A stretch of DNA of 39,251 nt. It comes from Chloroflexota bacterium. Its GTDB lineage: Bacteria; Chloroflexota; Dehalococcoidia; UBA6926. Shown here piece after piece: positions 6,228-39,251 of this stretch. The notes below the pieces were generated by a model. It did no database searches and had not been told where the DNA came from. It saw only the letters and a program-made list of their open reading frames with translations. A program made the translations under genes and the position numbers. The stretch spans positions 1 through 39,251 of the forward strand of contig JAPOOK010000029.1 of NCBI GenBank assembly GCA_026713485.1, read 5' to 3'. Position 1 is the first letter of the stretch. Every line of letters begins with the position of its first letter.

Positions 6228-6287
6228 TCAGCCGCAGAACCCCCGTCCTCAACCATCCTCATTCCCCCCACCCTTGTACTACTAGGA

Positions 6288-6315
6288 TTGACATACCTAT
6301 AGCGGCTGTCATAAT
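6288..6315 (+). promoter_or_regulatory. Promoter of solute-binding gene 2
   Basis: TTGACA (6288-6293), 16-bp spacer, CATAAT (6310-6315). CTAGG-type motifs surround it: ACTAGG at 6281-6286 and AACTAGG after the -10. The preceding 6228-6287 stretch has no other visible signal. Confidence 0.75.
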
Positions 6316-6356
6316 CGATAAATCTAACTAGGTTCTTAGGCAGGAAGGGAGACCTC

Positions 6357-8216
6357 ATGAGCAGATGGACACTGCTCCTTGTCGGGCTTATCGCCACGCT
6401 CGCGCTGCTTGCCGCAGCGTGTGGAACGGCCGAGGAAGACGACGAGGAGACACCCGGGCCGGCGGAGCCCACCGCGACGCCGCTTTTGATTACAGGGAGC
6501 TCGCCAACGGCGGTTCCCGATGATATGGACGACAGCAGGGACGACATGGATGACGACATGACGGACGAAAACGTTTCCGTCAGTGGTATCCCGCTTGACC
6601 CGGATGCAGTCTATGGCGGCACTCTCAAGCTCGCCTATAGGTCCAACAACCCCTTGAACCCGTGGGAAGAGGCGGCCGGGCCCGCATTCGATGTTGGGCA
6701 CCTGCTCAACAACATGTTGATCAAGCCCCGAACGTGGGGAACCGAAGACGATTTCAGAAACAACGCGTTCTTTGAGCTGCATCCTGATATGGCCAGCAGC
6801 TGGGAGCAGTCTGAAGATGGCCTCGCGTGGTCATTCAACCTCCGCGATGGCATTGAGTGGTCCGACGGCGTGCCTATGACGTGTAATGACGTCAAGTGGT
6901 CGTTCGACACAATCCGGCTTGCGAATGATGCCGGACTCCTCCGCAGCCCGCGGAAGACCCACTACCTAGCCATCGATAGCATCGTTTGCGCAGACGATCT
7001 GACCGTGGTCTTCAACCTTCGGTGGGCGAAGCCTGCCGTCCTGGAAGTCATTGGGCAGCCGTACAACATCATCTTCCCGTCTCACATCTACCAGACCGAA
7101 TTCCTGGAGACCGGCAGGCTGAACTCCATGCGGGAAGAGCCCTCCAAGGCCACCACGGGAGCGTTCAGGGTGGTTGAGTACATCCCGGGCGAGGGATATA
7201 CGTTTGAGAAGAACGAAGATTACTGGGATGCGCCGCTTCCCTACGTGGACAACGTAGAAATGATCTTCCTCTCCGGTTCCAACATTCCGCCCGCCCTCCG
7301 CACAGGAGCCGTCCACGTTGGTGATTCACACGGCTACACCGGTGGGCAGGCGCTCACGCTGATCCAGGAGGCAGATGAAGAGGTCTTCAAGATCTACGAT
7401 CGTGTCATTGCATCCTCATTCAGCCCCGCGCTCTTCCTCAACAAGAACCGCGAGCCATGGAATGACCCGGCCGTGAATACCGCATTCGCGCTGGCAATTG
7501 GCAACCAGAACTACGTCACCACCGTCCAGAACGACCTCTTCGTTCTGCCGACGGGCTGCGGCTTCTATCCCACCAGTGAATGGGCGATGCCTGCCGACCG
7601 CTGCGCGGCCATCCCAGGCTACGCGGATGTTTTCGGCGACACACCCGAAGAGCGTCTAGCTCAATCTGCCAGGGACAAAGAGCGCGCCAAGCAGATCCTT
7701 GTAGAGGCCGGTTACACTGGCGAGAACGCGCTCAACCTGAACATGGTCGTGTGGGGCGTGATCCGGGCGGACGGCCCAGCCATCCAGCTGGACTTGCAGG
7801 AAGTCGGCGTGAACGTGGAGATTGTCGAGTTTGACTCCACGACCACCTACACCAAATGGTCGAACGCAGACTTCGACGTGGGAGTCCACAGCTTCTGGAT
7901 CGCCGGAATCGACCCGGACGTGACCCTGTACGAGCACTTCTACACAGGTTCGGATCGCAACTACAACCGCTACAGCAATCCTGAGTTTGATAACCTCGTC
8001 AACACGATGAGTCGAACCCTGGACAAGGAAGAGCGGAAGGAGCTTGCGTGGCAAGCCATGGAACTCGCGTTGAATGACGTCGGTAAGGTCGTCATCTCGC
8101 ACGGATCCTACTACCCCATGGTCAGCGCCAACCTCCGCGGCTACATGCCTGCACCCAACTACCTCGCAGGCTACGGTCCGCAGAAGCGCTACTCCCATGT
8201 CTGGATTGACGAGTAA
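6357..8216 (+). CDS. Family-5 ABC solute-binding lipoprotein, paralog 2
   Basis: A 619-residue lipoprotein with a signal segment at residues 5-21 and lipidation Cys at 22 (LAAAC). An acidic linker rich in Asp and Met (about residues 25-75) is followed by SVSGIPLDPDA, the start of the mature domain shared with paralogs 3-5. The family-5 block LRDGIEWSDGVPMTCNDV is present. Two Cys pairs (TCND with IVCAD, and GCGFYP with DRCAA) are conserved. The C-terminal region carries YEHFYTGSDRNYNRYSN, common to paralogs 2-5. A ribosome site AAGGGAG precedes the ATG. It is monocistronic, with its own promoter and a strong terminator at 8273. Probably a binding protein for an ABC importer encoded elsewhere; ligand unknown. 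Confidence 0.94.
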   Translation: MSRWTLLLVGLIATLALLAAACGTAEEDDEETPGPAEPTATPLLITGSSPTAVPDDMDDSRDDMDDDMTDENVSVSGIPLDPDAVYGGTLKLAYRSNNPLNPWEEAAGPAFDVGHLLNNMLIKPRTWGTEDDFRNNAFFELHPDMASSWEQSEDGLAWSFNLRDGIEWSDGVPMTCNDVKWSFDTIRLANDAGLLRSPRKTHYLAIDSIVCADDLTVVFNLRWAKPAVLEVIGQPYNIIFPSHIYQTEFLETGRLNSMREEPSKATTGAFRVVEYIPGEGYTFEKNEDYWDAPLPYVDNVEMIFLSGSNIPPALRTGAVHVGDSHGYTGGQALTLIQEADEEVFKIYDRVIASSFSPALFLNKNREPWNDPAVNTAFALAIGNQNYVTTVQNDLFVLPTGCGFYPTSEWAMPADRCAAIPGYADVFGDTPEERLAQSARDKERAKQILVEAGYTGENALNLNMVVWGVIRADGPAIQLDLQEVGVNVEIVEFDSTTTYTKWSNADFDVGVHSFWIAGIDPDVTLYEHFYTGSDRNYNRYSNPEFDNLVNTMSRTLDKEERKELAWQAMELALNDVGKVVISHGSYYPMVSANLRGYMPAPNYLAGYGPQKRYSHVWIDE

Positions 8217-8272
8217 TCCAAAGGACGCCTGACACTTCTGAAAACGGCCAAGAGCCGATTCCGAAGAGCGAT

Positions 8273-8311
8273 AATGCCCCTGCCGCACCGGCAGGGGCAT
8301 TATTCCTTTTT
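8273..8311 (+). terminator. Intrinsic terminator of solute-binding gene 2
   Basis: A perfect 12-bp stem (AATGCCCCTGCC pairing with GGCAGGGGCATT, loop GCACC), followed by ATTCCTTTTT. Confidence 0.9.
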
Positions 8312-8315
8312 GCAA

Positions 8316-8361
8316 TACCTAGTATTACAGGGGTTGACACTAGCTAAGCGCGCGTCATAAT
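8316..8361 (+). promoter_or_regulatory. Promoter and upstream element of solute-binding gene 3
   Basis: TACCTAGTA (8316-8324) lies 18 bp ahead of TTGACA (8334-8339). A 16-bp spacer starting CTAGCTA leads to CATAAT (8356-8361). The TACCTAG element sits at the same distance from the -35 in genes 4 and 5, which suggests a shared operator or activator site, unless it is only recent common descent. Confidence 0.75.
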
Positions 8362-8398
8362 GACACAATCGCCCGATTAGAAAAGGGAGGGGGAGGCT

Positions 8399-10255
8399 AT
8401 GAGCAGATGGACATTGCTCCTTGTTGGCTTAATTGCCACGCTTGCGTTGCTTGCAGCGGCGTGTGGTACGGCTGACGAACCGGATGACACACCCGAACCG
8501 GTGGAGCCTACAGCGACCGCGATCGTCATTACGGGGAGCTCGCCAACAGCGGTACCCGCTGACACGAGCGGCGGGAGTGAACCGCCGATGGATGAGAACG
8601 TCTCCGTCAGCGGCATCCCACTTGATCCGGATGCCAGGCACGGCGGCATTCTCCAGACGTCATATACATCCCACAGCCCGAGCTTCGTTCCGTGGGAGTC
8701 AGCAGCGGGACATTCATTCCCTGTTGCTCACTTGCTGAATAACATGCTCATCAAGCCACGAACATGGGGCGATCGGGACGACTTTAGGAACCAGGTCTAC
8801 TTCGAGTTGCATCCTGATCTCGCCGAGAGCTGGGAACAGTCCGAAGATGGAAGGGCCTACACCTTTAATCTCCGCGACGGTGTGAACTGGTCAGATGGTG
8901 TTCCGGTCACGTGCAACGACATCAAGTGGTCGTTTGACACGATCAGGCTCCAGCAAGACGCAGGACTGCCTACCAGCCCGCGCAAGACCCACTACCTGGC
9001 CATCGACTCCATCACATGCCCGGATGACCTGACCGTGGTCTTCAACCTCAGGTGGGCGAAGCCGGCGATGATTGAAGTCATCGGCCAGCCCTACAACGTC
9101 ATCTTCCCAGCGCACATCTACCAGACTGAATTCCTGGAGACAGGCGCGCTGCGGTCCTTCCGGGAGGAGCCTTCCAAGGCAACTTCCGGCGCGTATACGC
9201 TCACTCAGTACATTGCTGGTGAGATCTTCGTATTCGAGCGCAACGATGACTACTGGGACCAGCCGCTTCCGTACCTGGATGGCGTAGAGATGCGATTCCT
9301 TGGCCCAGGATCCTCCCAGCTCCCGCCGGCGCTGCGCGCAGGCCGACTGGACATTGGCAGCACCACCGGCTACACGGGCGGTCAGGCTGACACGCTTCTC
9401 GCAGAGTGCACAGAAATGTGCCAGTTCTGGGAGGACCGCGTCATCGCATCCTCGTTCAGCCCGGCACTCTTCATCAACAAGGAGAGAGAAGGCTGGATGT
9501 CGGATCAGAGGATTCATGAGGCCTTTGCCTTGGCCGTTGACAACCAGAAGTACATCACGACGGTTCGCAACGACTGGTACGAGCTCCCGGTAGGCTGCGG
9601 ATTCTATCCTACCTCCCCGTGGGCCATGCCCAAGGATCGCTGCGGCCAGATCATCGGATTCGCGGATGTTGTTGGCGATACGACTGCAGAGCGTGCCACC
9701 GCCGCCGCCGCTGATAAGGAGCGCGCACGGCAACTGCTGAAGGACGCCGGCTACGATGAGATGAATCCGCTCGAGGTAACCTGGACAGTCTGGGCTCCCA
9801 TCCAGGGTGACATCCCGGCATTCCAGAGCGACCTCGAAGAGATCGGCGTCAAAGTGACTACGGATGTTCAGGAGTCAGCCACTGCGTATGGCAACTGGGC
9901 GACCGCTAACTTCGACTTCGGCCTTCACAGCTTCTGGATCGCAGGCATCGACCCGGACGTGACCCTGTACGAGCACTTCTACACGGGTTCCGACCGCAAC
10001 TACAACCGCTACAGCAATCCTGAGTTCGACAACCTCGTCAACCAGATGAGCCGGACACTGGATCAGGAAGAGCGTAAGGCGCTCGCATGGGACGCAATGG
10101 AAATGGCACTGAGTGATGTAGCCAAGATCGTTGTCTCCCACAGTTCCTACGTTGCGGCGGTCAACAAGGATGTCCGAGGCTACATGCCGGCCCTCAACTA
10201 CCTCGCCGGCTACGGCCCGACGTACCGCTACGCCCACGTCTGGCTTGATCGGTAA
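8399..10255 (+). CDS. Family-5 ABC solute-binding lipoprotein, paralog 3
   Basis: A 618-residue lipoprotein with the same architecture as its neighbours: signal segment, lipidation Cys22, short acidic linker, then SVSGIPLDPDA and the mature family-5 domain (LRDGVNWSDGVPVTCNDI). It carries an extra Cys pair, AECTEMC, besides the TCND/ITCPD and GCGFYP/DRCGQ cysteines. Paralogs 3, 4 and 5 share long stretches, including INKEREGW and RNDWYELPVGCGFYPTSPW, and are closest to each other by eye. A very strong ribosome site (GGGAGGGGGAGG) precedes the ATG at 8399. It is monocistronic between its own promoter and terminator. The ligand is unknown. Confidence 0.94.
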   Translation: MSRWTLLLVGLIATLALLAAACGTADEPDDTPEPVEPTATAIVITGSSPTAVPADTSGGSEPPMDENVSVSGIPLDPDARHGGILQTSYTSHSPSFVPWESAAGHSFPVAHLLNNMLIKPRTWGDRDDFRNQVYFELHPDLAESWEQSEDGRAYTFNLRDGVNWSDGVPVTCNDIKWSFDTIRLQQDAGLPTSPRKTHYLAIDSITCPDDLTVVFNLRWAKPAMIEVIGQPYNVIFPAHIYQTEFLETGALRSFREEPSKATSGAYTLTQYIAGEIFVFERNDDYWDQPLPYLDGVEMRFLGPGSSQLPPALRAGRLDIGSTTGYTGGQADTLLAECTEMCQFWEDRVIASSFSPALFINKEREGWMSDQRIHEAFALAVDNQKYITTVRNDWYELPVGCGFYPTSPWAMPKDRCGQIIGFADVVGDTTAERATAAAADKERARQLLKDAGYDEMNPLEVTWTVWAPIQGDIPAFQSDLEEIGVKVTTDVQESATAYGNWATANFDFGLHSFWIAGIDPDVTLYEHFYTGSDRNYNRYSNPEFDNLVNQMSRTLDQEERKALAWDAMEMALSDVAKIVVSHSSYVAAVNKDVRGYMPALNYLAGYGPTYRYAHVWLDR

Positions 10256-10302
10256 GCCATACCGCTGAGCCGCGTGGCGCGGACGACAAGTCCGAGACCA
10301 CA

Positions 10303-10343
10303 AGAGGGCCCCGATGCACCAGCATCGGGGCCCTCTGCTCTTA
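10303..10343 (+). terminator. Intrinsic terminator of solute-binding gene 3
   Basis: A 15-bp stem (AGAGGGCCCCGATGC with its exact complement 10322-10336, loop ACCA), followed by GCTCTT. The preceding 3' untranslated sequence (ACCGCTGAG...CCACAAGAGG) is shared with genes 4 and 5. Confidence 0.85.
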
Positions 10344-10365
10344 AGTCCCCGCCTCGCGCCACTTA

Positions 10366-10389
10366 GTCATTCCCGCGAAAGCAAGAATC
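10366..10389 (+). repeat. Dispersed repeat (GTCATTCCCGCGAAAGC type), degenerate
   Basis: It begins GTCATTCCCGCGAAAGC, but the right arm is decayed (AAGAATC). It lies in the 280-bp gap between paralogs 3 and 4. That gap also holds an extra CTAGCTAG motif near 10402 and an AT-rich stretch (10430-10450) ahead of the next promoter. Confidence 0.55.
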
Positions 10390-10453
10390 TTGTACTCCAG
10401 TAACTAGCTAGATGCGGAAACGTCATCTACCTCTCATATATCATCCTCTTTAG

Positions 10454-10499
10454 TACCTAGTATTCCGAGGGTTGACACTAGCTAGGCGCACGTCATAAT
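10454..10499 (+). promoter_or_regulatory. Promoter and upstream element of solute-binding gene 4
   Basis: TACCTAGTA (10454-10462), TTGACA (10472-10477), a 16-bp spacer starting CTAGCTAGG, then CATAAT (10494-10499). It is almost identical to the promoter of gene 3. Confidence 0.75.
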
Positions 10500-10535
10500 T
10501 GCCTAATCACGTCTTACCTTGGGAGGAGAATAACT

Positions 10536-12404
10536 ATGAGCAGATGGACATTGCTCCTTGTGGGCTTAGTGGCCACGCTTGCGCTGCTTGCGGCTGCGTG
10601 TGGTACGGCCGAAGAGGACGAAGACACGCCGGTAGCGGAAGAACCTACCGCGACGGCCATTGTCATCACAGGGAGCGCAGCAGACACTCCGGAGCCCGAG
10701 ACGGGCGATGACATGGACGACGAAGACGATATGACGATGGATGAAAACGCCTCCGTCAGCGGCATCCCACTCGATCCGGATGCCAAATACGGCGGCACCC
10801 TTCAAATCTCGTACACAAGCCACAGCCCGAGCTTCGTGCCGTGGGAATCGGCAGCCGGCCACTCATTTGAAGTGGCGCAAATGTTGAACAACATGCTGAT
10901 CAAGTCGCGCACGTGGGGCACAGAGGAAGATTTCAATAACTTTGCCTACTTCGAGTTGCACCCTGACCTCGCCACGGATTGGGAACAGTCCGCCGACGGA
11001 TTGGCGTACACCTTCAACCTGCGGGACGGCGTGGATTGGTCAGATGGGGTGCCGGTCACGTGCAACGACATCAAGTGGTCGTTTGACACGATCAGGCTTG
11101 CGCAGGACGCAGGTTTGAGCACGAGCCCACGAAAGACCCACTACCTGGCAGTCGACTCAATCGTTTGCCCGGATGATTTGACAGTGGTCTTCAACCTCCG
11201 ATGGGCGAAGCCGGCCATGATTGAAGTCATCGGCCAGCCATACAACGTCATCTTCCCGGCGCACATCTACCAGACAGAGTTCCTGGAGACCGGCGCGCTG
11301 CGCTCATTCCAGGACGAACCCTCCCAGGTAACGACCGGCGCCTACAGGCTGGCTAACTACATTCCGGGTGAAGTATTCACCTTCGAGCGGAACCCTGACT
11401 ACTGGGATCAGCCGCTCCCCTACCTTGATGGCGTTGAAATGCGATTCCTTGGCCCCGGCTCGTCCCAGATTCCACCGGCGCTGCGTGCAGGCCGTCTGCA
11501 CATCGGCAGCCCCAACGGATACACCGGGGGACAGGCGGACACTCTCCTCCAGGAGTGCACAGAAACGTGCCAATTCTGGCAGAACCGCATCATCGCCTCC
11601 TCCTTCAGCCCCGCCCTCTTCATCAACAAGGAGCGGGAAGGCTGGATGCAGGATCAGAGGATTCACGAGGCCTTCGCACTGGCGGTTGACAACCAGGCAT
11701 ACATCACCACCGTTCGTAACGACTGGTACGAGCTCCCGGTAGGCTGCGGATTCTATCCGACATCCCCGTGGGCTATGCCGAAGGATCGCTGCGGTCAGAT
11801 CACCGGATTCGCGGATGTTGTTGGCGAGACGACTGAAGAGCGAGCCGCTGCTGCCGCTGCTGATAAGGAGCGTGCACGGGAACTGCTGAAGGAAGCCGGC
11901 TACGACGAGATGAATCCTCTCACGGTCGACTTCACAGTGTGGTCCCCAATCCAGGGCGACGCCCCGCAGTTCATCAATGACCTTGCGGCCATTGGTGTCA
12001 CTGCCGAGGCGGATGTGCAGGAGTCTGCTACCGCTTACGGTAACTGGGCGACAGCCAACTTCGACTTCGGAGTCCACAGCTTCTGGATCGCGGGAATTGA
12101 CCCGGACGTGACCCTGTACGAGCACTTCTACACGGGTTCAGACCGCAACTACAACCGCTACAGCAACCCTGAGTTCGACAACCTCGTCAACCAGATGAGC
12201 CGGACATTGGACTTTGAGGTGCGCAGGGAGCTTGCCTGGGACGCGATGGAGATGGCGCTGAATGACGTCGCCAAGATCGTCGTCTCGCACAGCTCCTACG
12301 TGATGGCCATCAACAAGGATGTTCGCGGCTTTATGCCAGCCATCAACTACCTCTCCGCTTACGGACCACTGAAGCGCTATGCCCACGTCTGGCTTGATGA
12401 GTAG
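10536..12404 (+). CDS. Family-5 ABC solute-binding lipoprotein, paralog 4
   Basis: A 622-residue lipoprotein with lipidation Cys22. An acidic linker containing a run of Asp/Glu/Met (about residues 58-70) leads into SVSGIPLDPDA. The family-5 domain has LRDGVDWSDGVPVTCNDI, Cys pairs TCND/IVCPD, QECTETC and GCGFYP/DRCGQ, and the C-terminal YEHFYTGSDRNYNRYSN. The ribosome site GGGAGGAG lies 7 bases before the ATG. It differs from paralog 3 mainly in the linker and in a stretch around residues 455-485, where the ligand-facing lobe may vary. It has its own promoter and terminator. The ligand is unknown. Confidence 0.94.
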   Translation: MSRWTLLLVGLVATLALLAAACGTAEEDEDTPVAEEPTATAIVITGSAADTPEPETGDDMDDEDDMTMDENASVSGIPLDPDAKYGGTLQISYTSHSPSFVPWESAAGHSFEVAQMLNNMLIKSRTWGTEEDFNNFAYFELHPDLATDWEQSADGLAYTFNLRDGVDWSDGVPVTCNDIKWSFDTIRLAQDAGLSTSPRKTHYLAVDSIVCPDDLTVVFNLRWAKPAMIEVIGQPYNVIFPAHIYQTEFLETGALRSFQDEPSQVTTGAYRLANYIPGEVFTFERNPDYWDQPLPYLDGVEMRFLGPGSSQIPPALRAGRLHIGSPNGYTGGQADTLLQECTETCQFWQNRIIASSFSPALFINKEREGWMQDQRIHEAFALAVDNQAYITTVRNDWYELPVGCGFYPTSPWAMPKDRCGQITGFADVVGETTEERAAAAAADKERARELLKEAGYDEMNPLTVDFTVWSPIQGDAPQFINDLAAIGVTAEADVQESATAYGNWATANFDFGVHSFWIAGIDPDVTLYEHFYTGSDRNYNRYSNPEFDNLVNQMSRTLDFEVRRELAWDAMEMALNDVAKIVVSHSSYVMAINKDVRGFMPAINYLSAYGPLKRYAHVWLDE

Positions 12405-12453
12405 TCCAGACCGCTGAGGTGATGTGGCGAGGATAGTAAGTCCATAGACCACA

Positions 12454-12495
12454 AGAGGGCCCCGGGGCAACTGCCCCGGGGCCCTCTACTTTTTG
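12454..12495 (+). terminator. Intrinsic terminator of solute-binding gene 4
   Basis: A 16-base arm AGAGGGCCCCGGGGCA pairs with TGCCCCGGGGCCCTCT, followed by ACTTTTTG. The loop is very small, so the top pairs probably open. The promoter element of gene 5 starts at the next base. Confidence 0.88.
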
Positions 12496-12541
12496 TACCT
12501 AGCACTGCTAGGGTTGACACGCGTTATGGCCTAGTCATAAT
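12496..12541 (+). promoter_or_regulatory. Promoter and upstream element of solute-binding gene 5
   Basis: TACCTAGCA (12496-12504), TTGACA (12514-12519), a 16-bp spacer, then CATAAT (12536-12541). The spacer differs from those of genes 3 and 4 but still contains CCTAG next to the -10. Confidence 0.75.
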
Positions 12542-12579
12542 GTCATAATCGTGTTTCATTCTTTGGGGGGAGGGGAATC

Positions 12580-14424
12580 ATGAGCAGATGGACATTGCTC
12601 CTTGTCGGTTTGGTGGCCACGCTTGCTCTGCTTGCAGCCGCGTGTGGCACGGCCGAAGAAGATGAGGAGGAAACAACACAACCGCCGGAGCCCACCGCTA
12701 CGGCGATCGTCATTACGGGCAGCGCTGCAGATCCTACGGCAACACCCGAAATGGCTGAACCGATGGATGATCCTGATACCTCCGTTAGCGGCATCCCGCT
12801 TGATCCGGATGCCAAGTATGGAGGCGTCCTGCAAACGTCGTACACGTCCAACAGTCCGAGCTTTGTTCCGTGGGAGTCGGCGGCAGGGCATGCCTTCCCC
12901 GTCGGCCACCTGATTAACAACATGCTTATAAAGCCACGGACGTGGGGAACCAGGGAAGACTACAACAACCTGGCCTACTTCGAGTTGCATCCTGACCTCG
13001 CCACAAGTTGGGAACAGTCCGAGGATGGACAGGCGTACACGTTCCAACTGCGTGACGGCGTGAATTGGTCGGATGGCGTCCCGGTCACGTGCAACGATAT
13101 CAAGTGGTCGTTTGACACAATCAGACTCCAGCAGGATGCAGGGTTGCCCACCAGCCCACGCAAGACTCACTACCTGGCTGTCGATTCAATCGTCTGCCCG
13201 GATGACCTAACCGTGGTCTTTAACCTCAGGTGGGCGAAGCCGGCCATGCTCGAAGTCATCGGGCAGCCGTACAACGTCATTTTCCCCGCGCACGTCTACC
13301 AGACGGAATTCCTGGAGACCTGCGCGCTGAGGTCCTTCCGGGAAGAACCCTCCAAGGCAACCTCCGGCGCCTACACCCTGGCCGAGTGGATTCCCGGCGA
13401 GTCCTTCACGTTCGAACGCAACGCTGATTATTGGGATCAGCCGCTTCCGTACCTTGATGGCGTTGTGATGCAATTCCTTGCAAGTTCAGCCGTCCCAACT
13501 GCGCTGCGCGGTGGCCGGCTGGACATTGGAAGTGGCAGCGGCTACACCGGCGGGCAGGCGGATACGCTCATCCAAGAGTGTCAAGACACCTGCCAATTCT
13601 GGGATCGCATCATTGCATCCTCATTCAGCCCGGCCCTCTTCATAAACAAGGAGAGAGAAGGCTGGATGCAAGACCAGAGGATCCATGAGGCTTTTGCATT
13701 GGCCGTTGACAACCAGAAATACATCACAACGGTTCGCAACGACTGGTATGAGCTCCCGGTAGGCTGCGGATTCTATCCCACCTCCCCGTGGGCCATGCCG
13801 AGAGAGCGCTGTGGTCAGATCATCGGCTTTGCCGACGTGGTTCCTGAGACCCGCGAGGAGCGCGCGGCCGCGTCTGCGGCTGACAAGGAGAAGGCCCGGG
13901 CATTGCTGGCTGAAGCCGGGTACACGGCAGAGAATCCGCTTGAGGTGAATTGGACGGTGTGGTCGCCCATCCAGGGTGATGTCCCCGCCTTCCAGAGTGA
14001 CCTTGAGGAGGTCGGCGTGAAGGTCAACGCCGATGTCCAGGAGTCGGCCACCGCATACGGGAACTGGGCGACAGCCAACTTCGACTTCGGAGTCCACAGT
14101 TTCTGGATCGCGGGAATCGACCCGGACGTGACCCTGTACGAGCACTTCTACACGGGTTCCGACCGCAACTACAACCGCTACAGCAATCCGGAGTTCGACA
14201 ACCTCGTTAACCAGATGAGCCGAACCCTGGATCAGCAAGAGCGCAAGGAGTTGGCGTGGGACGCGATGGAGTTGGCGTTGAGTGAAGTCGCCAAGATCGT
14301 CGTCTCTCACAGCTCCTACATCCCGGCGGTCAATAAGGACGTTCGCGGCTTCATGCCGGCCCTCAATTACCTCGCGTTCTACGGGCCGCAGGGTCGCTAT
14401 TCCCACGTCTGGCTTGATCGGTAA
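12580..14424 (+). CDS. Family-5 ABC solute-binding lipoprotein, paralog 5
   Basis: A 614-residue lipoprotein with lipidation Cys22 and a Pro/Thr-rich linker, then SVSGIPLDPDA. The mature domain keeps LRDGVNWSDGVPVTCNDI and the paired cysteines (TCND/IVCPD, QECQDTC, GCGFYP/ERCGQ). An additional unpaired-looking Cys occurs in TEFLETCAL, where paralogs 3 and 4 have Gly. One short loop (FLASSAVPTAL) is shorter than in paralogs 3 and 4 (FLGPGSSQ...), which may change the ligand pocket. The ribosome site GGGGGGAGGGG precedes the ATG. It has its own promoter and a palindromic terminator. It is the last of the five-gene array; the selenocysteine tRNA follows on the other strand. Confidence 0.94.
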   Translation: MSRWTLLLVGLVATLALLAAACGTAEEDEEETTQPPEPTATAIVITGSAADPTATPEMAEPMDDPDTSVSGIPLDPDAKYGGVLQTSYTSNSPSFVPWESAAGHAFPVGHLINNMLIKPRTWGTREDYNNLAYFELHPDLATSWEQSEDGQAYTFQLRDGVNWSDGVPVTCNDIKWSFDTIRLQQDAGLPTSPRKTHYLAVDSIVCPDDLTVVFNLRWAKPAMLEVIGQPYNVIFPAHVYQTEFLETCALRSFREEPSKATSGAYTLAEWIPGESFTFERNADYWDQPLPYLDGVVMQFLASSAVPTALRGGRLDIGSGSGYTGGQADTLIQECQDTCQFWDRIIASSFSPALFINKEREGWMQDQRIHEAFALAVDNQKYITTVRNDWYELPVGCGFYPTSPWAMPRERCGQIIGFADVVPETREERAAASAADKEKARALLAEAGYTAENPLEVNWTVWSPIQGDVPAFQSDLEEVGVKVNADVQESATAYGNWATANFDFGVHSFWIAGIDPDVTLYEHFYTGSDRNYNRYSNPEFDNLVNQMSRTLDQQERKELAWDAMELALSEVAKIVVSHSSYIPAVNKDVRGFMPALNYLAFYGPQGRYSHVWLDR

Positions 14425-14474
14425 GCCATACCGCTGAGCTGATGTGGCGCGGATAGCAAGTCCGAAGACCACAA

Positions 14475-14515
14475 GAGGGCCCCGATGCAGCTGCATCGGG
14501 GCCCTCCACTTTTTG
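14475..14515 (+). terminator. Intrinsic terminator of solute-binding gene 5, perfect palindrome
   Basis: A 32-bp perfect palindrome (14475-14506, half-site GAGGGCCCCGATGCAG), followed by CACTTTTTG. Only 10 bp separate it from the 3' end of the convergent selC gene, and an AAAAA run on its other side could let it act in both directions. Confidence 0.88.
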
Positions 14516-16119: not shown

Positions 16120-16429
16120 CCCGGACCTTCCTTCCTGGTTCGTTACCCCACTATGGGTACAGTCTATCCTCACACGCAACAACTCGTTCTTACCGTGCGG
16201 GCATATCAGTATACGAAATCTACCCAAAGCTGTCATTCAATCCCATTCCCCTCCCATTCAAAAGGCCGCCCACGCCGGAACGCGGCCTACCAGCCCAACA
16301 GGCTCACTCAGCGCCAAGGCGAACCGAGAAAAACCCCTCGCGCGGGTGTATCATTGCGGTACGGCAAGGCGTGACCGTGCTCCCTCAAGGTGGGCGCGGC
16401 GCTGGCCTTCAAGGGGAGGTGGGGAAGAA
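16120..16429. other. Divergent intergenic region with one GCCGGAACGCGG repeat
   Basis: 310 bp between trxA (minus) and the hydroxylase FAD subunit (plus). It holds a GCCGGAACGCGG repeat at 16274-16285 inside a GGCCGC/GCGGCC hairpin, with a related GGCGAACCGAG half-motif at 16318. TATCAT at about 16349 is a possible -10 for the plus-strand genes, but no convincing -35 is seen. No gene is visible. Confidence 0.5.
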
Positions 16430-19422: not shown

Positions 19423-19473
19423 CCCCCATGCTGTACTATCCCCATAACGTGTCAACACACAAGGGGGTGAGTG

Positions 19474-20715
19474 ATGACAACGGACATCGGCGCGCAGATA
19501 GACGCCCACATCGATGAAGCAGAAATCGTGGAATTGATGCGGCGGCTCCATCAGCACCAGAGCTTCCCGCCGTATGAGGCAAGCGCCATGGCTGAGCTAC
19601 AGTCGTGGCTCGCAGAACGCGGCATCAATGCCGATCTTATCGATTTGGCTGATGAGCCAAGTCGTCCAAACCTGTTCTATAGGATGGAGGGCACGGGCGG
19701 CGGCAAGAACGTCATGTTCAACGGACACATGGACATTGATCCCGTCCCTATGAACTTCGAGGGTGATCCGTGGGAATTCAAGATTGAGGACGGCAAGGTG
19801 TACGGTCACGGCCTCGTCAACATGAAGTCCGGCGTCGCCGCCGCGGCGGCAGCCTTTATCGCCCTCCACAGGGCTGGCATCCCCATGCGCGGCGATGTGC
19901 TGATGACCGCCGTTGTTGGCGAGCTGCAGGGTGGATCAGGGGCCGTCGACCTTGTGCAGCGCGGCCTGCTGGGCGATGTGTGCATCATCCCCGAACCCAG
20001 CGACATGGAACTGCTTCTACTTCACGCCGGCGCAATCCAATTCCTGGTCCACACCTATGGCGAATCGGCGTGGATCGGCGCGATGCACAACATGAAGCAC
20101 GTCAACGCCGCTGAGAATCTTGCCCGTATTGTCATCGCCCTCAAGGACTTTGAGTTCGATTCCCCGCGGCGTGAGGAGTTCCCCGGCCTGCCACGCCTCA
20201 TCGTCGGCGGCATCAACGGCGGCATCGGGCGCCAATATGCACACTGGCGGGCTTCTTATGTCCCTGATTTTGCGTCTGCCATCCTGGAAGTGCGCGGCCT
20301 CCCGGAACAGGACTACGATGACATCCAACGTCAGATTGAAGACGTCATCAGGAGCGTTGCCGATGGCGATCCCGATTTCAAATGGGAGATTGAGCGGCCA
20401 CCTGCCACCAACGCGCCCGAATGGCAGAGCCTAAAAACCGAAGCCTATGGCATTGACCTGCCTCTCGAACACTTCCTGAACCAAACCATCGCCAAGCACC
20501 ACCGTGAGGTACGGAACGAAGACCCGGGCTGGATGTCTTCCAACGCCTGGGCTGATTCTGGCCATTTCACCAACGCCGGCTGTGTGTCAGTCTGCTACGG
20601 ACCCAGCGCTCAAAGGATGTTCATGCGGGAGTACGGTGTGGAGGTGAAGTGGGTGGTGGACTGCGCAAAGATCATCGCCCGTGCCGCCGTCGACATAGCA
20701 AATATGGACAAGTAA
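19474..20715 (+). CDS. M20-family (ArgE/DapE-like) protein, copy 1, with altered metal-site residues
   Basis: A 413-residue member of the M20 metallopeptidase/deacylase family. The first zinc motif GHMDIDP (H85, D87) is intact, and EP (E174) is kept. Other positions differ from the family: the bridging Asp in G-x-G-x-x-D-M-K is Asn (GHGLVNMKSG, N116); the Glu-Glu pair is Glu-Leu (VGELQGG, E150/L151); the dimer-domain His appears as Trp (GESAW, W200); and the C-terminal segment reads GPSAQRMFMREYG, with no His. ATG at 19474 follows AAGGGGGTGAG. It is about 85-90% identical by eye to the next gene. It may bind a single metal, act on an unusual amide, or be non-hydrolytic. Confidence 0.88.
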   Translation: MTTDIGAQIDAHIDEAEIVELMRRLHQHQSFPPYEASAMAELQSWLAERGINADLIDLADEPSRPNLFYRMEGTGGGKNVMFNGHMDIDPVPMNFEGDPWEFKIEDGKVYGHGLVNMKSGVAAAAAAFIALHRAGIPMRGDVLMTAVVGELQGGSGAVDLVQRGLLGDVCIIPEPSDMELLLLHAGAIQFLVHTYGESAWIGAMHNMKHVNAAENLARIVIALKDFEFDSPRREEFPGLPRLIVGGINGGIGRQYAHWRASYVPDFASAILEVRGLPEQDYDDIQRQIEDVIRSVADGDPDFKWEIERPPATNAPEWQSLKTEAYGIDLPLEHFLNQTIAKHHREVRNEDPGWMSSNAWADSGHFTNAGCVSVCYGPSAQRMFMREYGVEVKWVVDCAKIIARAAVDIANMDK

Positions 20716-20780
20716 CCCAATCATGCTGCCGTAACACCCCCTCTCGTGGTAACGTGTCCGCACAACACAGGGGGTGTGTT

Positions 20781-22019
20781 ATGACAACCGACATCGGCGC
20801 GCAGATTGACGCCCACATCGATGAAGCAGAAATCGTGGAGTTGATGCGACGGCTCCACCAGCACCAGAGCTTCCCGCCGCATGAGGCCAGCGCCATGGCA
20901 GAACTCCAGGCGTGGCTCGCAGAACGCGGCATCAATGCCGATCTCATCGACGTCGCAGACGAACCCGGCCGCCCGAACCTCTACTACAAGATGGCGGGTA
21001 CCGGCGGCGGCAAGAACGTCATGTACAACGGCCACATGGACATTGATCCCGTCCCGATGTACTTCGAAGGCGATCCGTGGGAATTCAAGATCGAAGACGG
21101 CATGATCTACGCCCATGGCCTCATCAACATGAAGGCCGGCGTCGCGGCCGCAGCCGCAGCCTTTATCGCACTCCACCGCGCCGGCATCCGTATGCGAGGC
21201 GATCTCCTCATGACTGCCGTCGTCGGCGAGTTGCAGGGCGGTGTAGGAGCAGTAGACCTCGTCCAGCGAGGCCTGCTTGGCGATGTCTGCATCATCCCGG
21301 AGCCGACCGGCATGGAACTCCTTCCACTCCACGCGGGCGCCATCCAATTCCTCGTCCATACCATTGGCGAGGCAGCGTGGATCGGTGCGATGCACAACAT
21401 GAGTTACGTCAACGCCGCCGAGAAGTTGGCCCGCATCATCACCGCTCTCGAGGGCTTTGAATTCGATTCGCCTCGACGCGAAGAGTTCCCCGGCCTCCCA
21501 CGCCTTATAGTTGGAGGCATCAACGGCGGCATCGGCCGGCAATACGCCCACTGGCGCGCCTCCTACGTCCCGGATTTTGCGTCTGCCATCCTTGAGGTCC
21601 GCGGCCTCCCGGGACAGGACTACGATGACATCCAGCGACAGATCGAAGACGTCATCAGGGGCGTCGCGGACGGTGATCCCGACTTCAAATGGGAGATCGA
21701 GCGCCCTCCCGCTACCAACCGCCCCGAATGGCAGAGCCTGAAGACTGAGGCATATGGCATTGACCTGCCCCCGGAGCACTTTCTCAACCAGACCATCGTC
21801 AAATATCACCGTGAGGTCAGGAACGAAGAGCCAGGCTGGATATCCTCAAACGCATTCAACGATTCCGGCCACTACACCAACGCCGGCTGCGACTCCCTCT
21901 GCTACGGCCCCGGAGGCCACACCATCATCCGCGAGTACGGCACCGAGATAAAACGCGTCGTAGACTGCGCCAAAATCATAGCCAGAGCCGCCGCAGAAAT
22001 GGCCAACATGGACAAGTAG
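20781..22019 (+). CDS. M20-family (ArgE/DapE-like) protein, copy 2
   Basis: A 412-residue tandem duplicate of the preceding gene. It carries the same changes at the family metal positions (GHGLINMKAG with Asn for the bridging Asp; VGELQGG with Leu for the second Glu; GEAAW with Trp for the dimer-domain His). Unlike copy 1 it keeps a His in the C-terminal segment (GPGGHTIIREYG). The start is ATG at 20781, preceded by CAGGGGGTGTGTT. The frame is open upstream to 20649, but that part overlaps the end of copy 1 and is not homologous. The leader of copy 1 (AACGTGTC...ACACA...GGGGGTG) is repeated here, so the duplication included the leader. Confidence 0.88.
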   Translation: MTTDIGAQIDAHIDEAEIVELMRRLHQHQSFPPHEASAMAELQAWLAERGINADLIDVADEPGRPNLYYKMAGTGGGKNVMYNGHMDIDPVPMYFEGDPWEFKIEDGMIYAHGLINMKAGVAAAAAAFIALHRAGIRMRGDLLMTAVVGELQGGVGAVDLVQRGLLGDVCIIPEPTGMELLPLHAGAIQFLVHTIGEAAWIGAMHNMSYVNAAEKLARIITALEGFEFDSPRREEFPGLPRLIVGGINGGIGRQYAHWRASYVPDFASAILEVRGLPGQDYDDIQRQIEDVIRGVADGDPDFKWEIERPPATNRPEWQSLKTEAYGIDLPPEHFLNQTIVKYHREVRNEEPGWISSNAFNDSGHYTNAGCDSLCYGPGGHTIIREYGTEIKRVVDCAKIIARAAAEMANMDK

Positions 22020-22032
22020 ACCTGCCGTCCCC

Positions 22033-22058
22033 TCATTCCGGCGAAAGCCGGAATCCAT
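22033..22058 (+). repeat. Dispersed palindromic repeat (best-preserved copy)
   Basis: A clean inverted repeat: ATTCCGGC and GCCGGAAT around GAAA, ending ATCCAT. A GC-rich CTCCCCGCGGGAG hairpin follows at about 22071-22090. It lies after the second M20 gene and could end its transcript. Confidence 0.7.
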
Positions 22059-28807: not shown

Positions 28808-29332
28808 ATGGACTCATCAACCCGGATCCTTGTCGGAATTGTCGCCGCGGTCATTGTTCTTGTCGTCCTGGCAATCGCCCTCCCCCGTCTCATTCAGGAG
28901 GAGGAGGCCGACTACCCGCCCAACACGCCGGAGGGCACCGTCCAGCGATACATCCGCGCCATGATCGACAAAGACGTCGATACCGCCCTCGCCCTCATGA
29001 CCCAAGAGAACGCCGCCGCCTGCGTCGAAGACGAAATCCGGAATCGCTTGCGCTACTCCTCCTACGATGACAACCGCGTCCGACTTGGCGATGTCGAGGA
29101 GATGGGCAGTGACACCGTCATCATCACCGTCGGCGTCACGCATCGTCGCGAGCCTGGCCTCTTCCAGCTCCCCGAAGAGAGCAACACTACCGAGTATGCA
29201 TTCGACCTCCGACGCTCAGCCGACGGCTTTTGGCTCATCTCAGATTCGAAATGGCCCATAGCGCTTGGATACATCCGCGAAGACTTCTGCGAACGCGAAC
29301 CGCCCCCCACACCGTCAGTATCCTCATCATGA
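28808..29332 (+). CDS. Membrane-anchored small protein with NTF2/DUF4878-like domain
   Basis: A 174-residue protein. Residues 7-27 form one transmembrane anchor (ILVGIVAAVIVLVVLAIAL), followed by an acidic stretch and TPEGTVQRYIRAMIDKDVDTAL, the helix typical of NTF2-like/DUF4878 lipoprotein domains. A C-terminal beta-rich part ends in DGFWLISD, then a Pro/Ser tail. Two cysteines (CVED and FCERE) could form a disulphide outside the membrane. The stop overlaps the start of the next gene (ATGA), so the two are translationally coupled. The domain call rests on pattern only; the function is unknown. Confidence 0.7.
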   Translation: MDSSTRILVGIVAAVIVLVVLAIALPRLIQEEEADYPPNTPEGTVQRYIRAMIDKDVDTALALMTQENAAACVEDEIRNRLRYSSYDDNRVRLGDVEEMGSDTVIITVGVTHRREPGLFQLPEESNTTEYAFDLRRSADGFWLISDSKWPIALGYIREDFCEREPPPTPSVSSS

Positions 29333-30876
29333 GCATTCCTCAGCGTTCATACGTCTATCTCGCCGCCTTTGCCGCATTCTGGCTCCTTCTGCAGGGCGCC
29401 TACGGCCTTGCCACCGATCTAACCAGCTCATTGGGTGGTCTCCTCAGCGGCGACACACCGGACGCCACGTGGATCGCTATGGTCATCGTCGCCCTTCCGG
29501 TCTGGCTCGCACATGAATTCCTGCTCCGTCGCGCGTCAACCGGCCACCCCGACGAAGTCGCCTCCGCGCTCCGCAAGCTATACGTCCACGCCGCCCTCTT
29601 CCTCGCCGCCCTCTACATCTTCTTTGGCGCGCTGGAGATCGTTCAGGGTGTTCTCGGTGATGTGTCGGGTCTCGACCACATCGGTGGAGTCGCTGCAGCC
29701 TCTGCCCTGTGGTACTACCTGTGGCGACGCGAGATTCTCGAAGGCCAGCCGGGTAGCCGCGCCCGGACAGTCCAGCGGTGGCGAATCTACGGTCTGAGCG
29801 TCCTCTTCCTCGCCACCGCCGTCACGGGGGCCTTCTGGATCATTGCTGCCCTCGCCTACGTCGCCTCAGGCGTCGCTCTAGAGGACTCAGACCTGCTAAT
29901 CACAGGCGAGACAGGGCTGGACGCATTGAGAACAACCGCCTCCTGGGCGCTCGCCGGAACCATTGCATGGGCCATCCAATGGCGTACCATCGCCGAGCGG
30001 GACGAAGAATCGGTCCTGCGTCAGGTCTACCTATATGGCTTCGCATTCATCGGTGGCGCATCCCTAGCGCTCTGGGGAGCGGCAGCAGCGATCTACTTCG
30101 TCATTGCCAAACTTGTCGGCGCAGACGACACCACAACTACTATCGCCTACATCAGGCAATTCATCCTGCCCGCCGTCGCCCTTCTGATTGGGCTCGCCCT
30201 CCTCGCCTACCACTGGTCAATCATTCGCCGGGACGCCACCCGCAAATCCATCGCCGTCATTCCCGCGCAGGCCGGAATCCATCCCTCGTCCATCACCGAA
30301 TCCCCCCACCTCTCAGTCACATTCAAATACATCATGTCCGCCGTCGGCCTAATAGCCCTCGTACCGGGCGTCATGGTTCTTATCATGACCGTCCTCTTCC
30401 TGCTGACCGAAGGCGACCTCCTCTCCCCGGCAAACGACGACGCCGAAGCACTTGCCGTCGCCCTAACCATGATTATCGTCGGCGCGCCCCTCTGGTTTAC
30501 GTTCTGGTGGCGCGTCGTCCGCGCCGATCCGAATAGCCTCATCCGACGCATCTACCTCTACGTCGCCCTCATTGCCCTCGGCGGTACAACCCTCATAACC
30601 CTCATAACCCTTCTCGCTGCCGTCCTCACAGAGATCCTTGGACAGGGCTCAGGTTTCCTTGACGATGCCCTCATCCCCGGCCTCTCAATCGTCCTGCCCG
30701 CCGCCACATTCTTCGCCTACCACGTCCTCATCCTCCGCGAAGACTCCCAACGCACCCCCTCCGTTATTCCGAGCGCAGTTGAAGAATCTGAAGACCAGAT
30801 TGCCCAGCCAACCTCCGTTTCGCCGATTCCCGGCCCTCCATACATCCTCCCGGACTGGAAACCCCCACGCCCCTAA
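29329..30876 (+). CDS. Multi-repeat integral membrane protein (DUF5671-like) with in-frame palindromic-repeat linkers
   Basis: A 515-residue membrane protein with about 12 hydrophobic segments arranged as six two-helix units of 75-95 residues. Unit starts resemble each other (RSYVYL, LRKLYVH, VQRWRIY, LRQVYLY, a divergent fifth, IRRIYLY), and unit ends share a basic xW/Y...RR motif (HEFLLRR, YLWRRE, WRTIAERD, YHWSIIRRD, WWRVVRAD, YHVLILRED). The pattern recalls DUF5671. The linker after unit 4 reads VIPAQAGIH (from residue 310) and the tail after unit 6 reads VIPSAVEES (from residue 479). These are translations of two dispersed DNA repeat families. The start is ATG at 29329 in the ATGA overlap with the preceding gene; the frame upstream to 29230 is that gene's shadow. 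Function unknown. Confidence 0.82.
   Translation: MSIPQRSYVYLAAFAAFWLLLQGAYGLATDLTSSLGGLLSGDTPDATWIAMVIVALPVWLAHEFLLRRASTGHPDEVASALRKLYVHAALFLAALYIFFGALEIVQGVLGDVSGLDHIGGVAAASALWYYLWRREILEGQPGSRARTVQRWRIYGLSVLFLATAVTGAFWIIAALAYVASGVALEDSDLLITGETGLDALRTTASWALAGTIAWAIQWRTIAERDEESVLRQVYLYGFAFIGGASLALWGAAAAIYFVIAKLVGADDTTTTIAYIRQFILPAVALLIGLALLAYHWSIIRRDATRKSIAVIPAQAGIHPSSITESPHLSVTFKYIMSAVGLIALVPGVMVLIMTVLFLLTEGDLLSPANDDAEALAVALTMIIVGAPLWFTFWWRVVRADPNSLIRRIYLYVALIALGGTTLITLITLLAAVLTEILGQGSGFLDDALIPGLSIVLPAATFFAYHVLILREDSQRTPSVIPSAVEESEDQIAQPTSVSPIPGPPYILPDWKPPRP
30256..30282 (+). repeat. Dispersed palindromic repeat inside a coding region
   Basis: GTCATTCCCGCGCAGG followed by CCGGAATCCAT, inside the multi-repeat membrane protein gene and in frame (VIPAQAGIH). 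It lies in the linker between the fourth and fifth two-helix units. Confidence 0.75.
30763..30789 (+). repeat. Second-type dispersed repeat inside the same coding region
   Basis: GTTATTCCGAGCGCAGTT followed by GAAGAATCT, in frame (VIPSAVEES) just after the last membrane unit. The same type occurs between genes at 37767-37815. Confidence 0.72.
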
Positions 30877-37766: not shown

Positions 37767-37815
37767 GTCATTCCGAGCGCCCCCATGTGTCATTCCGAAC
37801 GCAGTCGAGGAATCT
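37767..37815 (+). repeat. Two copies of the GTCATTCCGAGCGC repeat, one truncated
   Basis: GTCATTCCGAGCGC (37767-37780) is followed by a fuller copy, GTCATTCCGAACGCAGTC then GAGGAATCT (37789-37815). It is the same type as the in-frame copy at 30763. Confidence 0.7.
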
Positions 37816-37853: not shown

Positions 37854-37880
37854 CTGGATTCCCGCGAAAGTGGAAATGAC
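37854..37880 (-). repeat. Dispersed palindromic repeat, reverse orientation
   Basis: CTGGATTCCCGCGAAAG followed by TGGAAATGAC, the inverted form of the 10366-type element. It ends 11 bases before the nadE stop codon and could serve as its 3' structure. Confidence 0.65.
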
Positions 37881-37891
37881 AGGTTCGTGAT

Positions 37892-39251
37892 CTACCCCGG
37901 TCTGTAGCGGTTGACGATGGGGAGGCGGCGGTCTTTTCCGAAGGCGCGTTCTGTTATTTTGACCCCCGGGGCGGCCTGGCGGCGTTTGTATTCACTTATG
38001 TCTACTAGCGTTGTAACTCGGGCGACGACGTCTTTATCAAAGCCGAGTTTTTCGATCATGTCCTTCGGGGAGACATCGCGCTCCACGTAGGCTTCGAGTA
38101 CGGGATCAAGCACGTCGTAGGGTGGCAGGGAGTCCTCATCGAGCTGGTTCTCGCGGAGCTCGGCGGTGGGGGGGCGGTCGATGATGGCCTGCGGTATGAT
38201 GTCGTGCCCGGCCTGTTCGTTTCGCCAGTTTGCGAGTTGGTAGACAAGGGTCTTTGGGACGTCCTTGATGACAGCAAAGCCGCCCGCCATATCGCCGTAC
38301 AGGGTGGCGTAGCCGGTGGCGTATTCACTCTTGTTGCCCGTTGCGAGGACGATGCGGCCGAACTTGTTTGAGATAGCCATGAGGATGTTGCCACGGGCGC
38401 GGGCCTGCAGGTTTTCCTCGGCGACGCCTTCCTGCGTGCCGGCGAATAGGTTGGCCAAGCCATCACGGTAGGCGTTTGTCATGTCTTCAATGGCGATGAT
38501 CTCAAAGTTGATGCCGAATTTCTCACAGAGGGCGCGGGCGTCCGTGACGCTCTGATCCGCGGTGTAGCGAGAGGGCATCGAGACGCAGAGGACGTTCTCC
38601 GGGCCAAGGGCATCGGCGGCGACGGCGGCGGTGAGGGCGGAATCGATGCCTCCGGAGAGGCCGATGACGACCTGAGAAAAGCCGCTTTTTCGAACATAAT
38701 CTTTCGTTCCTTTGACAAGAGCGTTATAGACCTCTTCAACGGGTCCCATGGGGGTCGTCATAGGGTTGGCGTGCTGCGTTTCAAATAGGGGTTTGCGGTA
38801 CGACCCCTCCTCTTCCTGCTTTGTGACGGGAATCACAATGTAGTCTGCAAAATGTGCGTTTTGGGGGTCATCCGGGTCTACTACAGCGGTTTGGGACACA
38901 GTGTCCGCCTCAGCGAGCGGGAGGTCGGCGAGGATGAAGTCATCGTCGAACTGCCGGCCTGTGGCGATGGTCTTGCCGTGTGGGTCGAAGATCATGCTCG
39001 CGCCGTCGAAAACGAGCTCGTCCTGGCCGCCGATCATGTTGACGTAGCAGAGGAATATGCCGTTGTCGGCAGCTCGCTGGCTCAGCATGTCCTCGCGGAC
39101 GGCGCGTTTGCCGCGGTAGTAGGGGGAGCCGTTGATATTGATGATGACCTGCGCGCCGGCGGCTTTCTGGACGTTGGTGGGGCCGAGATCAAACCAGATG
39201 TCCTCGCAGACGTTGACGCCGATGCGGGCGCCACCGATCTCATAGACGGGA
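37892..39251 (-). CDS. nadE: Glutamine-dependent NAD+ synthetase (N-terminus beyond window)
   Basis: The visible 453 C-terminal codons cover most of a two-domain enzyme that amidates nicotinic acid adenine dinucleotide to NAD+. The nitrilase-type glutaminase domain shows its nucleophile in VNVCEDIWFD and the INGSPYYRGK segment close to the window edge. The synthetase domain has the PP-loop VIGLSGGIDSALT, then SRYTADQSV, LATGNKSEYATGY and the C-terminal DRRLPIVNRYRPG. The frame stays open to the last base, so the true start lies right of the window; internal ATGs such as that at 39088 fall within the nitrilase domain. The 3' flank is repeat-rich. Confidence 0.96.
   Translation of the reverse strand, partial: PVYEIGGARIGVNVCEDIWFDLGPTNVQKAAGAQVIININGSPYYRGKRAVREDMLSQRAADNGIFLCYVNMIGGQDELVFDGASMIFDPHGKTIATGRQFDDDFILADLPLAEADTVSQTAVVDPDDPQNAHFADYIVIPVTKQEEEGSYRKPLFETQHANPMTTPMGPVEEVYNALVKGTKDYVRKSGFSQVVIGLSGGIDSALTAAVAADALGPENVLCVSMPSRYTADQSVTDARALCEKFGINFEIIAIEDMTNAYRDGLANLFAGTQEGVAEENLQARARGNILMAISNKFGRIVLATGNKSEYATGYATLYGDMAGGFAVIKDVPKTLVYQLANWRNEQAGHDIIPQAIIDRPPTAELRENQLDEDSLPPYDVLDPVLEAYVERDVSPKDMIEKLGFDKDVVARVTTLVDISEYKRRQAAPGVKITERAFGKDRRLPIVNRYRPG

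Follow-up and report, generated by a model that had tools for sequence, protein, structure and literature searches.

Copies of CGTC REPs inside genes have already been published, including RPE-4 and RPE-6 of Rickettsia; for these repeats, insertion into flexible linkers and DNA repair genes has been discussed, no dedicated transposase is known, and published cases lie mostly in alphaproteobacteria (Di Nocera et al. 2013, PMC3733652). Here we describe two repeats, elements 1 and 2, that are translated in frame within a DUF5671 membrane protein gene. The window, meaning the whole stretch of DNA analyzed, is 39,251 nt long.

Element 1 has the same tag, stem, loop and tail as CGTC family 1 (Di Nocera et al. 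2013), which includes Neisseria dRS3 and Rickettsia conorii RPE-6. The likeness extends to dispersed intergenic copies, the lack of an associated Y1 transposase and in-frame units within genes; the differences are the host, here an uncultured member of the Dehalococcoidia (Chloroflexota), and one mismatch in the stem of element 1. CGTC-1 REPs carry an unpaired terminal tag, CGTC or the variants TGTC and CCTC, and a short unpaired tail resembling CCA; they are predominantly head-to-head dimers, and neighbouring copies were seen in this genome. The Rickettsia palindromic elements (RPE-1, RPE-4, RPE-6) are likewise small palindromes found between genes and, in frame, inside genes for conserved enzymes. 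However, the present host is not Rickettsia, the closest relatives found for it being Dehalococcoidia metagenome-assembled genomes (MAGs), the longer RPE-1 is a different element, and the five in-gene CGTC copies found here use three reading frames. GTAG REPs with RAYT transposases are also short tagged palindromes, sometimes intragenic, but the tag here is CGTC/TGTC and no Y1_Tnp gene was found in the source genome (G000) or in two congeners (G003 and G004).

No report of in-gene CGTC REPs for Dehalococcoidia was found in the open-access literature. Insertion of REPs in frame has been reported chiefly from Proteobacteria and Rickettsia, along with a few other phyla; the present results add Dehalococcoidia and provide clean cases with empty sites in congeners, above all pgk. 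They also call for caution in annotation: when peptides such as VIPAQAGIH, RHSRESGNP, MDSGFRRNE and VIPSAVEES turn up in predicted proteins, they may stem from translated repeats and need not be motifs.

Two repeat types in the DUF5671 gene

The features of the window on which the comparison rests are as follows:

29329–30876, + strand: DUF5671 membrane protein gene, 515 aa (ORF, Pfam PF18920, orthologs in G003 and G004)
30255–30281, + strand: element 1, CGTC-1 type REP (one mismatch to the genome consensus, hairpin fold, family anatomy, absent from orthologs)
30762–30823, + strand: element 2, VIPS-type family (two mismatches to the family core, downstream profile, absent from orthologs)
974–995, + strand: CGTC-type element, intergenic
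22035–22056, + strand: CGTC-type element, intergenic, just 3' of the ORF at 20649–22019
37792–37815, + strand: VIPS-type element, intergenic (partial copy from 37770)
37855–37881, − strand: degraded CGTC-type element, intergenic (read from sequence)

The DUF5671 ORF opens with an ATG at 29329, which overlaps the stop of the ORF at 28808–29332, and its stop ends at 30876. Pfam PF18920 matches the 515-aa protein in four stretches (E = 2.1e-42), and the codon-usage score is positive to either side of element 1. An Rfam search of the gene region gave no match. The initial annotation had placed VIPAQAGIH at residue 310 and VIPSAVEES at residue 479, both in frame, and this was confirmed: residues 310–318 (codons 30256–30282) lie ahead of the Pfam stretch at 332–459, residues 479–487 (codons 30763–30789) lie past it, and each segment corresponds to a copy of a repeat dispersed in the genome. 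The AlphaFold model of the protein has a mean pLDDT of 43.5, too poor for placing linkers, so that the coil predicted at 310–329 and 475–515 is only suggestive.

Element 1 is a textbook CGTC-1 REP. It reads CGTC ATTCCCGC GCAG GCCGGAAT CCA, with the tag at 30255–30258, arms at 30259–30266 and 30271–30278, a 4-nt loop at 30267–30270 and the CCA tail at 30279–30281; the AT-led stem of 8 bp contains one C–C mismatch. The element is one mismatch from ATTCCCGCGCAGGCGGGAAT, a pattern for which 0.00 chance matches are expected in the window at up to three mismatches. At the same threshold the family occurs at 64 places in the 1.9-Mb genome, against none for the reversed control pattern. Conservation across these copies begins at the tag (94–98% per position over 64 copies) and drops off past the tail, where other copies end in CT or CC. 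The consensus ATTCCCGC/GCAG/GCGGGAAT folds into an 8-bp stem with a 4-nt loop (−13.7 kcal/mol, z = −3.25), and the hairpin of element 1 is weaker, at −7.5 kcal/mol. As expected of CGTC-1 REPs, the tens of copies are dispersed and mainly intergenic, with few in genes. CGTC elements are open in five of six reading frames.

Element 2 belongs to a different type. Its sequence ATTCCGAGCGCAGTTGAAGAATCT (30766–30789) is two mismatches from the family core ATTCCGAGCGCAGTCGAGGAATCT, which occurs at 35 places genome-wide (control pattern, 0). The family tag is [C/T]GTC, and element 2 has CGTT. The initial annotation ended this repeat at 30789; that position is indeed the end of the core (30762–30789, read as VIPSAVEES), but the next 34 nt are also repeat-like, to about 30823 (through EDQIAQPTSVS). 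The family is conserved further downstream as AAAG.CTCAATTGC.., giving a conserved repeat of about 40–60 nt, and the 34 nt 3' of the element 2 core scored higher on this downstream profile than all 78,275 other 34-mers of the window. About 60 nt encoding VIPSAVEESEDQIAQPTSV thus look repeat-derived, and the extension carries further amino-acid changes (AAA to GAA).

In the VIPS-type consensus, pairing is limited to 5 bp plus 2 bp interrupted by mismatches, and its −4.3 kcal/mol does not improve on shuffled sequences; the element 2 copy no longer folds into the family hairpin. The type shows the CGTC/TGTC tag of the CGTC REP superfamily and lacks its 8–9 bp stem with a 4–5 nt loop; because the published CGTC families have longer and better-paired stems, we file the VIPS-type family as CGTC-like and not as a member. 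It is open in four of six reading frames. Searches of the open-access literature gave no match for the VIPS-type sequence or for translated REP peptides, and the family is apparently without a published name. A third, related repeat family, ATTCTGAGCGCAGCGAAGAATC, has about 26 sites in the genome. Another dispersed repeat, with core AAGCCGGAACGCGG, occurs at 16260, 27447, 30903 and 30973; two tandem copies lie just 3' of the DUF5671 gene, and elsewhere some VIPS-type copies are followed by a motif resembling this core.

Intergenic copies of both types are likewise present in the window, as first reported: CGTC-type copies at 974, 22035 and 37855–37881, and VIPS-type copies at 37792 and, in part, 37770. 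The label of mobile repeats was not borne out, since no Y1_Tnp/RAYT-type REP transposase was found in the source genome, G003 or G004.

Orthologs and other genes with in-frame elements

A whole-genome search recovered DUF5671 orthologs from two genomes of the same genus, G003 (65% identity) and G004 (49%), and none from the genomes searched further out in the family and order. A genome-collection scan identified the ortholog contigs as belonging to the Dehalococcoidia MAGs SB0661_bin_39 and Plut_88869. Had the orthologs carried the same peptides, the proposed repeat origin would have failed; both VIPAQAGIH and VIPSAVEES are missing from each, in a comparison that comprises these two orthologs only. 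Relative to G003, the net excess is 15 nt (5 aa) at element 1 and 18 nt (6 aa) at element 2. Because the linkers vary in length, an exact target site, empty site or duplication is unreadable at this locus, and a loss along the lines leading to G003 and G004, in place of a gain, retains a small probability. The G004 ortholog (L062, contig C83) lies within an open frame of 716 aa, which has a long additional part at its C-terminal end.

The absence in G003 is not for want of repeats, since that genome holds 66 CGTC and 36 VIPS elements elsewhere. G004 holds 2 and 0, respectively, and none of either type was found in four other genomes of the order. Because congeners differ so widely in load, the genus is suited to asking how CGTC REPs spread.

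We then examined the sequence surrounding each of the 131 element sites, listed the spanning ORFs and scanned 50 of the larger ones with Pfam. This replaced the codon-usage score as a finder of in-gene elements, which had missed the alkZ-like gene. Six elements lie inside four conserved genes, namely DUF5671 (two), pgk, nadE and an alkZ-like gene (two). The genes other than DUF5671 are as follows:

L113, 336–1775 (contig C32), + strand: pgk with in-frame CGTC element (Pfam, congener alignment)
37892–39251 of the window, − strand: nadE (NAD synthetase), truncated at the contig end (overlapping PVYEI ends; CN_hydrolase, E = 5e-18)
L100, 1642–3066, − strand: alkZ-like (DNA-glycosylase-like) gene with two CGTC elements in frame

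The figure of six is a minimum because the count rests on Pfam-recognisable ORFs; GIY-YIG, epimerase, NYN and enoyl-CoA hydratase-like ORFs were left uncounted since the element lies only upstream of the domain, probably in a 5' leader. Coding DNA is strongly depleted of elements: at the coding fraction of the window (0.86), about 113 of the 131 would be expected to fall in it by random placement, against 6 found inside conserved genes.

The pgk gene provides the clearest case. A 93-nt insert, HGNSPAPHSATTRHSGEGRNPSRGPTGPQPP, lies in frame between LAQHA and RAGATV and holds a perfect CGTC element, and the empty site is preserved in both congeners (LAQYARAGATV in G003, LAQHARAGATV in G004). The G003 PGK is 89% identical over residues 51–395, and the alignment of the protein to solved structures is split at the insert. 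Both DUF5671 and pgk therefore show the pattern that defines Rickettsia palindromic elements, an in-frame repeat in a conserved gene that is absent from orthologs.

The nadE gene is divided between two contigs: the N-terminal portion is found where contig C40 begins (L094, 2–496, − strand), and because PVYEI is common to both ends, the contig of the window and C40 adjoin. Its in-frame CGTC element is read as RHSRESGNP (VVVGYPL-RHSRESGNPESPL-IFNGAAV). In the same loop G003 has PHSGESRNPS, from a different CGTC subtype, and G004 has none; G003 contigs end near the nadE element. The two elements of the alkZ-like gene read DSGLRRND and DSGFRRNE. The gene also contains at least two other repeat-like stretches in frame (HPHPNPPPSRGRG and LALRQAQGERG). 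Neither element is present in G004; in G003 the first site is occupied by two stretches derived from CGTC elements. CGTC elements within genes thus use three frames, giving VIPAQAGI, RHSRESGNP/RHSGEGRNP and DSGLRRND/DSGFRRNE.

Origin of the translated segments

Taken together, the DUF5671 gene of this lineage very probably took up two dispersed, mostly intergenic palindromic repeats, which survived where the frame and a flexible linker allowed. The original proposal that non-coding repeats had entered this coding sequence twice is thereby supported by the dispersed, mostly intergenic families, the orthologs lacking the peptides and the empty site in pgk. The two, a CGTC-1 REP and a related repeat with a CGTC/TGTC tag, would have arrived by DNA-level insertion at tolerant sites, the linker before the Pfam unit at 332–459 and the C-terminal tail. 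A net addition divisible by three would lengthen the protein without ending it; that it was lengthened and not terminated follows from the repeats being open in several frames. The added peptides would be neutral passengers, and insertions elsewhere in genes would have been purged, leaving those in loops, linkers or tails. Insertion is the natural reading because pgk has an empty site, and the use of three reading frames favours insertion at the DNA level over the spread of a peptide. The simplest account has the elements inserted as DNA and then lost wherever they were harmful, and it needs no function of the added peptides.

A broader form of this account is put forward only tentatively: in this Dehalococcoidia genus, several repeat families may repeatedly lengthen the same tolerant loops, so that linkers would be hotspots of ongoing growth, with the undescribed VIPS-type repeat moved by an unknown enzyme. 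It draws on the nadE and alkZ-like genes, in which repeats occupy matching places in two species, with differing subtypes in nadE.

That the peptides have been taken into use, with VIPAQAGIH and VIPSAVEES now kept as linkers by protein-level selection, is unlikely. The core codon stretches differ at four positions from the family sequences that match them best, and each of these is a synonymous change in a third codon position, where about 25% of random changes would be synonymous; the peptides are intact although element 1 retains only a weakened hairpin and element 2 has lost its own. However, this pattern does not show selection on the peptides, because there are only four changes and one ancestral base is uncertain: should the C variant (GCC, Ala), which is commoner, be the ancestor of element 2, one change would be nonsynonymous. 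The amino-acid changes in the element 2 extension and the different frames used in other genes likewise argue against it.

An action of the elements at the RNA or DNA level within the gene, through a hairpin, pausing or mRNA stability and with translation incidental, is very unlikely. The strong consensus hairpin (−13.7 kcal/mol, z = −3.25) and the intact palindromes kept by pgk and nadE are consistent with such a role, but in DUF5671 itself the weakened fold of element 1 reaches only −7.5 kcal/mol and element 2 is without the family hairpin.

That the segments are ancestral linkers resembling repeats by chance or convergence is extremely improbable: linker length is variable and the orthologs number two, but the DNA-level matches go far past chance, including the CGTC tag of element 1, and the match of element 2 runs 34 nt past its core. 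A repeat-mediated chimera in the metagenome assembly is barely credible, for although the assembly is fragmented (72 contigs) and the contig breaks in nadE fall at a repeat or close to one, DUF5671 and pgk each continue in frame across the element with the expected homology, and synteny downstream of the DUF5671 gene is the same as in G003.

The window contains two further groups of repeated genes. Four tandem similar genes of about 2 kb each at 6270–14506 look like ABC-transporter solute-binding proteins; they have a conserved upstream stretch with TTGACA and CATAAT, and strong GGGCCCC hairpins follow some of them. A tandem pair at 19471–22019, with 88% DNA identity over the best 300 nt, looks like M20-type peptidases.
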